From positions 1 through 43,866 of IMG/VR virus record IMGVR_UViG_3300012008_000011: a DNA stretch of 43,866 bases; one strand, written 5' to 3'. Origin of the DNA: a virus. Position 1 is the first letter of the stretch; each line of letters opens with the position of its first letter. Both the position numbers and the translations under genes were made by a program. The notes beneath the pieces were generated by a model, which had not been told where the DNA came from, made no database searches, and worked only from the letters and a program-made list of their open reading frames with translations. Below, one piece after another: positions 30,756 to 33,035 of the stretch.

Positions 30756-31991
30756 ATGGCTGGAGTTCAGCTCAACAACGTTGCGGGCACACTGTTGCCC
30801 CCGACGATCACCGGCCCCATCTTCCTCAAGGCGTCCGAGACCTCGGCCGTCATGCAGCTGGCCCGCAAGGTCCCCCTGTCGGTCTCGGCCAACACCGCGA
30901 TCCCGGTCCCCATGGACATCCCCACCGCTGGGTGGGTTTCTGAGGGTGGCGTCAAGCCGGTCTCTCAGGGTGGCGTCGGCGTCAAGGTCATGACCGGCAA
31001 GAAGGTTGCACTTCTGGTCCCGGTCAGCCAGGAAGTCGTCATGACCAACGCGGCCGGCCTGTATGACCAGCTGTCGCAGGATCTGCCGTCCGCGATCAGC
31101 CGCGCGTTCGACTACGCCGCGATCCACGGCCTCGACCTCAAGACCGGTGCCGCTGGCCCGTTCAGCGACTACCTCAAGGACACCCCGAACACTCAGGTCA
31201 TCGGCGCAACGGCGGCCAACGCCGGTGGCGTCTACACCGACCTGTGGACCGGCGTCGCCAAGGTCGCGGCCATCCCTGGCATGCAGTTCTCCGGGTTCGC
31301 GTGTGACCCGCTGCTTCGCCCCGAGGCTGCCATGTCCGTGGACGCCAACGGCCGCCCGTTCTTCGTGTCCGACGCGTACAACGCCAACAGTGGCGTCAAC
31401 GCCGGCGCGCTGATCGGGTACCCGGCGTACTTCAACTCGGGCGTGTCCGGTCGGTACTACCGTTCTGGCGACGCGGTGCAGGTCATCACGATCAACGGCG
31501 CTCCGACCGGCGGCACGTTCACGGTCACCATCGGAGGCCAGACCACGGCGCCGATCACTGCCGGTACCGCCCTCCCCACGGCAGCGACCATCCAGACCGC
31601 GATCCAACTACTGCCGGGTTCGGTCGCCGCAGGCGTGGCCGTCACTGGCGCAGCCGGTGGCCCGTTCACGCTGACCTTCAGCGGTGCGTCCGCACCGGTC
31701 TCCACGAAGGCGAGCCTGACCGGTGGCACCACACCGTCGATCACGGTCACGCAGTCTCCGGTCATCGATCAGGGTCTGCGCGCCATCGGTGGCGACTTCT
31801 CCCAGTGCGCCTACGGCGTCGGCATGGACATCAGCATCAAGGTGTCCAGCGAGGCCAACTACTTCGACGGCACCACGTGGCACTCCGCGTTCCAGGAGAA
31901 CCTCACGCTGCTGCTCGTAGAGGCCTACTATGGCTTCGTCGTCGGTACGCACAGCGCGTTCGTGGCGTACACCCACGCTGTAGGCGCGTGA
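30756..31991 (+). CDS. Major capsid protein, HK97 fold with inserted beta domain
   Basis: This 411-residue protein starts at ATG 30756 with AAGGAGAG upstream. HK97-type features are W-V-S-E-G-G-V-K-P in the E-loop region, V-P-V-S-Q-E-V at the spine and G-D-F-S-Q-C-A-Y-G-V in the A domain, ending with F-V-A-Y-T-H. Between Y-Y-R-S-G-D (about 240) and I-D-Q-G-L-R-A-I-G-G-D-F (about 337) lies an insert of about 95 residues rich in T, G and V with T-F-T-V-T-I-G-G-Q-T-T, resembling a small beta domain found in many phage structural proteins. The insert should project from the capsomer surface. Confidence 0.85.
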   Translation: MAGVQLNNVAGTLLPPTITGPIFLKASETSAVMQLARKVPLSVSANTAIPVPMDIPTAGWVSEGGVKPVSQGGVGVKVMTGKKVALLVPVSQEVVMTNAAGLYDQLSQDLPSAISRAFDYAAIHGLDLKTGAAGPFSDYLKDTPNTQVIGATAANAGGVYTDLWTGVAKVAAIPGMQFSGFACDPLLRPEAAMSVDANGRPFFVSDAYNANSGVNAGALIGYPAYFNSGVSGRYYRSGDAVQVITINGAPTGGTFTVTIGGQTTAPITAGTALPTAATIQTAIQLLPGSVAAGVAVTGAAGGPFTLTFSGASAPVSTKASLTGGTTPSITVTQSPVIDQGLRAIGGDFSQCAYGVGMDISIKVSSEANYFDGTTWHSAFQENLTLLLVEAYYGFVVGTHSAFVAYTHAVGA

Positions 31992-31997
31992 TCTGAT

Positions 31998-32066
31998 GTC
32001 CTCCTAGCACTTCGGTCCTACCTACGTTACTATGGTGGGTAGGTAGGACCGAAGTCTATGGAGGAC
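31998..32066 (+). promoter_or_regulatory. Long hairpin sequestering the RBS of the homing endonuclease gene
   Basis: A perfect 17-bp stem (32009-32025 with 32039-32055, 13-nt loop) is extended by an outer 7-bp stem GTCCTCC/GGAGGAC (31998-32004 with 32060-32066). The outer 3' strand is the GGAGG Shine-Dalgarno site of the gene starting at 32070. Transcripts entering from the capsid gene would therefore fold with the ribosome site blocked. It may also act as a terminator, though no T tract follows. Confidence 0.7.
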
Positions 32067-32069
32067 CAC

Positions 32070-32570
32070 ATGCCACAGAAGCGCATCCCGACGATCGTTC
32101 GCTACTTCACCAAGGTCGATCAGTCGGCAGGACCAAATGGCTGCTGGCCTTGGACTGGCGCCTGCGATCAGGACGGCTACGGGATCTTCTGGGATGGCAC
32201 CTACCGCGAGAACGGGAGCGGTCACTACGTCCGAGTGACCCGGTGGACCTACGAGCAGTTCGTGGGTCCGATTCCCGCCCGGCAACAAGTCCTTCACCAT
32301 TGCGACAACCCACCCTGCGTGAACCCTGTCTGTTTATTCACCGGGACAGTGAAGACCAACCACGAGGACCGCGAAGCCAAAGGCCGTGGCCGCCGGATGC
32401 ACGGCGCCACTCACGTTGGGTCGAAACTCGCTGACGATCAGGTCAGGGAGATTCGGACCCGGTATGCCGCTGGTGGCATCCCTCAGCAGGCCCTTGCGGA
32501 TGAGTTCGGCGTTAGCAACCAACTGATTTCGCTCATCATCCGACGCCTCAAGTGGGCGCACGTGGAGTAA
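32070..32570 (+). CDS. Free-standing HNH homing endonuclease with C-terminal HTH
   Basis: The protein is 166 residues from ATG 32070, chosen because GGAGG (32060-32064) overlaps the upstream ATG at 32058. The N-terminal part has C-W-P-W-T-G-A, G-Y-G-I-F and R-W-T-Y-E-Q-F-V-G-P-I-P; the HNH core is V-L-H-H-C-D-N-P-P-C-V-N-P-V-C-L-F. The C-terminal helix-turn-helix (A-L-A-D-E-F-G-V-S-N-Q-L-I-S-L-I) should bind target DNA. It interrupts the head operon between capsid and connector genes, as selfish intron-less endonucleases do. Confidence 0.82.
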   Translation: MPQKRIPTIVRYFTKVDQSAGPNGCWPWTGACDQDGYGIFWDGTYRENGSGHYVRVTRWTYEQFVGPIPARQQVLHHCDNPPCVNPVCLFTGTVKTNHEDREAKGRGRRMHGATHVGSKLADDQVREIRTRYAAGGIPQQALADEFGVSNQLISLIIRRLKWAHVE

Positions 32571-32588
32571 CCCAAGACGGAGGCCGAC

Positions 32589-33035
32589 ATGAGCACACCA
32601 ATCGCTGTGGCTTCCGACCTCGGCACGTACCTGGGGCTCGATCCCGGCACCATCGATACGGCTCGGGCCACTCTGATCCTTCAGCTTGTCCAGGATCTCG
32701 CCGAGTTCGTCATTTCACCCTTGCCTCCGGCCGCTCTCGGCATCGTCTTGTCGTCGGCGGCTCGGGCATTCAACAACGTCACGTCAGCCCAGACCGTCAG
32801 CCTCGGAACCGGGCACATCGGCTACGCCGCCCCCGGTGCCAGTGGTACCAGTGAGGGCGTCGGCGGCCTCTACCTGTCCCGATCTGAGCAGCGTCTCCTG
32901 CGGTTGGCTGCGGGCCGTGGGGGCGCGTTCTCGATCGACCCGACACCCGCCGACGCTGGCCAGGGCCTCATGCCTTGGGATCAGAACGTCACATGGCTGG
33001 AAGGTGTCCCACTCGCTGAGGATCAGCGACGATGA
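32589..33035 (+). CDS. Head-to-tail connector (adaptor)
   Basis: This 148-residue protein starts at ATG 32589 (GGAGG upstream). The N-terminal half is helical (L-G-T-Y-L-G-L-D-P-G-T-I-D-T-A-R-A-T, L-V-Q-D-L-A-E-F-V) as in gp6/gp15-type adaptors; the C-terminal part has Y-L-S-R-S-E-Q-R-L-L-R-L-A-A. It forms the first ring under the portal. Confidence 0.7.
   Translation: MSTPIAVASDLGTYLGLDPGTIDTARATLILQLVQDLAEFVISPLPPAALGIVLSSAARAFNNVTSAQTVSLGTGHIGYAAPGASGTSEGVGGLYLSRSEQRLLRLAAGRGGAFSIDPTPADAGQGLMPWDQNVTWLEGVPLAEDQRR

Follow-up and report, generated by a model that had tools for sequence, protein, structure and literature searches.

A hairpin that accompanies an HNH endonuclease gene behind a phage capsid gene may close its ribosome site in read-through RNA

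How is an endonuclease gene controlled that lies directly behind a major capsid gene and has its ribosome site within a long inverted repeat? Such a gene is present in the window, by which we mean the whole stretch of viral DNA that was analysed (IMG/VR record IMGVR_UViG_3300012008_000011, positions 1 to 43,866, 43,866 nucleotides). The features of the locus are:

30756-31991, + strand: major capsid protein (MCP) gene (Pfam Phage_capsid, 1.4e-16; PHROG major head protein, 5e-36)
31992-32588, + strand: inserted or replaced stretch between capsid and adaptor genes (597 nt, compared with 47 nt in L006, L008 and L009)
31998-32004, + strand: outer 5' arm GTCCTCC (anti-Shine-Dalgarno), beginning 7 nt past the capsid stop codon
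32009-32025, + strand: inner 5' arm of 17 nt, perfect complement of 32039-32055
32026-32038, + strand: loop of 13 nt
32028-32033, + strand: candidate -10 element TACTAT, with a predicted transcript start at about 32040
32023-32028 and 32031-32036, + strand: overlapping -10 alternatives TACGTT and TATGGT
32039-32055, + strand: inner 3' arm of 17 nt
32060-32066, + strand: outer 3' arm GGAGGAC, which contains the Shine-Dalgarno sequence GGAGG at 32060-32064 (from sequence and fold)
32070-32570, + strand: HNH endonuclease gene, 166 amino acids (Pfam HNH_3, 2.7e-6, above cut-off; PHROG endonuclease, 1.6e-28)
32589-33035, + strand: head-tail adaptor gene (PHROG head-tail adaptor Ad1, 2e-9)

The capsid gene ends with its stop codon at 31989-31991 and the HNH gene starts at 32070, with GGAGG 5 nt upstream and an MPQ start that is common to its closest HNH relative, L045. 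An in-frame ATG at 32058 was dropped as start codon, as L045 starts at the position matching 32070. The gene is free-standing and presumed to encode a homing endonuclease; the C-terminus of the protein has a possible helix-turn-helix (HTH_7 at 0.0016, below cut-off). The capsid protein itself carries an inserted domain at residues ~238-331 (window 31467-31752) with matches to families of major tail and tail-sheath proteins: its DNA is ~76-83% identical to part of the major tail genes of Gordonia and Nocardia phages, and a second copy is found downstream in L010, L029 and L062.

The two arms of the inverted repeat (31998-32025 and 32039-32066) have 28 nt each, are 86% complementary and enclose a 13-nt loop. 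The inner stem (32009-32025/32039-32055) has 17 bp without a mismatch and the outer stem (31998-32004/32060-32066), which contains the Shine-Dalgarno sequence of the HNH gene, is a perfect 7 bp; the gap between the two stems is mostly closed by RNAfold, resulting in a nearly continuous stem. The region 31980-32100 folds with -61.8 kcal/mol (z = -6.8; none of 200 shuffles folds as well) and the hairpin ranks first among the short-range inverted repeats of the window. Arms and fold confirm the structure described in an earlier note, with CCTCC paired to the GGAGG of the HNH gene by a perfect 17-bp and an outer 7-bp stem. There is no second copy of the arm sequence within the 43.9-kb window, and the exact 17-nt arm had 0 matches in 2.9 million viral contigs scanned, indicating that the arm is not a shared operator. 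Rfam covariance models gave no match in 31900-32800 at E up to 5.

Relatives were collected by capsid protein search. In L006, L008 and L009, with capsid proteins 81-92% identical to that of the window, the gap between capsid and adaptor genes is 47 nt long and both the HNH gene and the hairpin are absent; similarity to these uninvaded relatives picks up again at the adaptor ATG. In L085, a contig from an Actinobacteria MAG, both the HNH protein and its leader with the hairpin are the same as here. Absence of both elements from the three nearest relatives and presence of both in L085 indicate that gene and hairpin go together, and support the earlier suggestion that the hairpin may have come with the insertion. 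A hairpin equally present in relatives without the endonuclease, which the earlier note regarded as one of the observations that would speak against its idea, was looked for: L006, L008 and L009 are hairpin-free. The flanks are alike at window 31989-31994/32568-32575 and in L072 (TGATCT on the left, TAACCCA on the right); unrelated HNH genes of the window and L072 occupy one gap, and the matching flanks may mark where a shared insertion site begins and ends.

HNH genes directly behind capsid genes were found at 14 distinct loci, the window included, from three HNH families and two capsid lineages; these loci share ancestry and are not fully independent phylogenetically:

Family a: window; L045 (HNH protein 63% identical)
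Family b (second family): L072, L034
Family c (third family): L054, L071, L092
Family c, second capsid lineage: L102, L104, L105, L106, L113, L116, L125

The start region is folded, by computation, at 12 of the 14 loci (families a and c), with the ribosome site or the start codon buried, weakly so in L045 and L113. The ribosome site lies in or against the 3' arm in the window, L102, L104, L105 and L125, the start codon lies within the loop or an arm in L054, L071, L092 and L106, and in L116 the start adjoins the outer stem. In family b (L072, L034) the hairpin is mainly upstream of the ribosome site. These two loci (L072:5228-5330, L034:5243-5355) have the order TAGAAT, strong hairpin and free ribosome site, which may represent an attenuator instead of a lock. 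Between L102 and L104 (HNH proteins 83% identical) the fold is kept despite a change from A-U to G-C in the inner stem, one compensatory change. The arrangement of a hairpin over the ribosome site of an HNH gene, noted earlier at the window locus, recurs in two HNH families and two capsid lineages.

Among annotated phages, the HNH gene gp30 of Jabbawokkie, which is in culture on M. smegmatis, is preceded by a 15-bp stem that ends at its ATG (L196:2330-2400); Zapner, Renaud18 and Soul22 have a homologue of gp30 at the same place. HNH homologues elsewhere in actinophages (Miskis, Footloose, DumpsterDude) have no upstream lock, which means that the lock does not belong to the protein family as such, and an alignment search found no conserved blocks across all HNH relatives. 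One further HNH relative, gp34 of Gordonia phage Belphegor (L198), is inserted antisense between two minor tail genes.

The accessibility of starts was expressed as opening cost, the energy needed to open positions -15 to +5 around the start in the read-through RNA. It averages 19.9 kcal/mol over the 12 loci of families a and c, while 150 other genes from these contigs need 11.8 ± 4.1 kcal/mol (p = 3e-5), leaderless and Shine-Dalgarno-type starts being scored by one formula. When the RNA begins at the predicted transcription start site (TSS), picked by eye at loci with several candidate sites, the mean relief in families a and c is 14.6 kcal/mol, compared with 0.2 ± 2.5 kcal/mol for the control, other genes with the RNA cut at -30 (p = 2e-8), and the remaining cost in the TANNNT-derived transcript is ~5 kcal/mol. 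The HNH start of the window costs 20.7 kcal/mol in the read-through RNA, with the Shine-Dalgarno sequence fully paired with the upstream arm, and 6.6-9.6 kcal/mol in RNA from the predicted start; removal of the outer 5' arm reduces the cost from 20.7 to 7.1 kcal/mol. Relief is small in L045 (11.9 to 9.5 kcal/mol) and weak in L113. At Jabbawokkie gp30 the cost falls from 20.4 to 4.7 kcal/mol on RNA truncation, and this gene, being part of a cultured M. smegmatis phage, offers a route to a direct test of the lock. HNH genes and the post-capsid genes of HNH-free relatives do not differ in opening cost, because the latter have a separate lock on the adaptor gene (see below), and other genes of the same contigs were therefore used as control.

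A scan for consensus promoters found no sigma-70 -35/-10 consensus pair at the candidate -10 element, and a TANNNT motif in the window alone is expected by chance (null 0.89). Across the set, all 14 HNH slots contain a TANNNT that puts a start ahead of the gene, where shuffled sequences give 9.0 ± 1.6 (p = 0.001); among HNH-free gaps the figure is 6 of 50. These counts lend indirect support to the transcript starting inside the loop that the earlier note proposed. The leaderless spacing TANNNT-N6-ATG is found at 6 of 17 HNH starts examined (background 0.0022), and also at Jabbawokkie gp30, SCentae gp166 and Forrest gp210; this exact spacing suggests, at the level of sequence motifs, that these HNH genes may have their own leaderless mRNAs. 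Loci with TANNNT exactly 6 nt before the HNH start codon include L004, L005, L103, L054, L071, L106, L196, L214 and L216. A special placement of the TSS within the gap is not strong at many loci: in the window, about half of the possible start positions in the gap (0.46) would open the site equally well.

The reading that we favour, with a probability of roughly 0.6, is that the HNH gene was inserted together with a regulatory hairpin which locks it in read-through RNA, and that a promoter in the loop gives an open mRNA. A free-standing HNH gene would have entered the gap between capsid and adaptor genes with its hairpin. In the mRNA that reads through from the capsid gene, GTCCTCC would pair with the ribosome site of the HNH gene and the abundant late message would yield no nuclease. 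A weak host-type promoter with its -10 element in the loop would give a short mRNA beginning at the 3' arm: with the 5' arm missing, the ribosome site would be open. As this promoter would be of host type and not a phage late promoter, nuclease production would probably fall outside the time when capsid is expressed. Hairpin, insertion and recurrence in other capsid slots come from the sequences and from calculation; translational repression by the hairpin and the embedded promoter are predictions from fold energies and motif positions, and homing activity is presumed.

A serious rival at the window locus is translational coupling to capsid termination: ribosomes that end at the capsid stop codon would mask GTCCTCC and free the ribosome site, and the nuclease would be made in step with the capsid. 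The anti-Shine-Dalgarno arm lies 7-13 nt past the stop codon, a distance that a terminating ribosome usually still covers, and masking it would bring the same drop in cost as its removal. The hairpin would, however, refold between ribosomes, and at other loci the arm is more distant, with half of the relief reached only after 28 nt (L045, L102), 31 nt (L104) or 32 nt (L125), which means that coupling is not the function that the loci share; overall we consider this explanation improbable. To the same degree we doubt that the hairpin is a terminator or stabiliser at the 3' end of the capsid mRNA that overlaps the HNH ribosome site by proximity only. Strong terminator-like hairpins are indeed present between capsid and next gene in the HNH-free L010, L017, L028, L032 and L048, but their 3' arms stop 21-32 nt short of the start codon and do not enclose the ribosome site, while in the window the anti-Shine-Dalgarno arm pairs exactly with the Shine-Dalgarno sequence. 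Moreover, the hairpin is absent from the nearest uninvaded relatives, the stem is followed by CTATGGAGGACCACATG with no U-run, and a scan of the + strand found no terminator-like site at the stem.

Least probable, with very little weight in our estimate, is that the inverted repeat acts as DNA, either as relic of the insertion or as operator for autorepression by the endonuclease, like the operator overlapping its own promoter that is bound by I-TevI (PMC2988022). The weak helix-turn-helix matches in the HNH protein would fit an operator, but the hairpin sequences vary among loci while the architecture is constant, and G-U pairs, a fixed asymmetric internal loop that holds the Shine-Dalgarno sequence (L102, L104) and a bulge (L106) look like features of an RNA rather than of a DNA palindrome. 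Both the terminator and the operator are less likely than the RNA lock, alongside which action as a DNA operator could still occur.

The separate lock on the adaptor gene came to light in the HNH-free relatives, where the post-capsid genes have a mean opening cost of 20.2 kcal/mol (n = 66), compared with 11.8 kcal/mol (p = 1.5e-19). In many of these relatives the leader forms base pairs with codons ~10-17 of the gene itself, 16-17 bp of them in L027 and L029:

L006-L084 and L111-L190: post-capsid gene start lock, leader pairing with codons ~10-17

When leaders were swapped among 49 non-redundant loci, the cost was 21.0 for a leader with its own coding region and 13.4 with those of others (p = 6.5e-10), and synonymous recoding reduces the opening cost of the adaptor (mean z 1.36, p = 6e-6); both tests support selection on the adaptor start lock. 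The adaptor of the window (start at 32589) has lost this lock, with a cost of 12.7 kcal/mol compared with 24.3 kcal/mol in the uninvaded L009; it is kept in the HNH-invaded L072, L102, L105 and L106 (20.5-23.6) and Arthrobacter phage Hum25 has it as well (20.1). The 13 annotated phages that were sampled do not show it as a general rule (adaptors p = 0.10). It is possible, and we suggest it only tentatively, that the post-capsid slot of this phage group is under a general lock at the RNA level: the native adaptor gene by a downstream hairpin, and mobile HNH genes by an upstream hairpin with an embedded host-type promoter that they bring along, a lock which the selfish genes would have evolved for themselves at this position. 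If real, the adaptor lock would be a way to get very different protein amounts from a single capsid message.

The principle of a hairpin over the ribosome site of a homing endonuclease gene is known and, as the earlier note stated for I-TevI of T4, well documented: long upstream transcripts of I-TevI, I-TevII, I-TevIII, segB and Aeh1 mobE fold such a hairpin, and an internal promoter gives a shorter transcript that is unable to do so (PMC2988022, PMC3014915). The literature that we searched, which misses most subscription papers, has no actinophage case of a hairpin-locked endonuclease, and within its limits neither the setting nor the nuclease families have been described, nor have the candidate leaderless promoters or the repeated occurrence behind capsid genes. 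HNH genes of mycobacteriophages, in Cluster J and others, are scattered in structural and other regions and are proposed to be homing endonucleases (PMC3706429); no hairpin lock or embedded promoter is described for the free-standing ones in the passages of that paper that we used. Like the HNH gene of the window, segD of T4 is free-standing and adjoins the major capsid gene, lying between gene 23 (major capsid) and gene 24; this homing endonuclease gene is of the GIY-YIG type, however, has the opposite orientation and no lock is described for it (PMC2988022). The seg43 gene of Aeromonas phage 25 has a very stable hairpin upstream of its ribosome site (PMC2988022), like family b (L072); its ribosome site is outside the stem, whereas that of the window is inside. 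What the window has in common with the T-even endonuclease genes is the computed locking of the ribosome site in read-through RNA; it differs in phage group, in nuclease families and in its slot behind the capsid gene. The candidate promoter differs too, as it looks host-type (TANNNT, often leaderless across the set) instead of T4 late, and the locked message of the window would be the late one, the reverse of the timing in T4.
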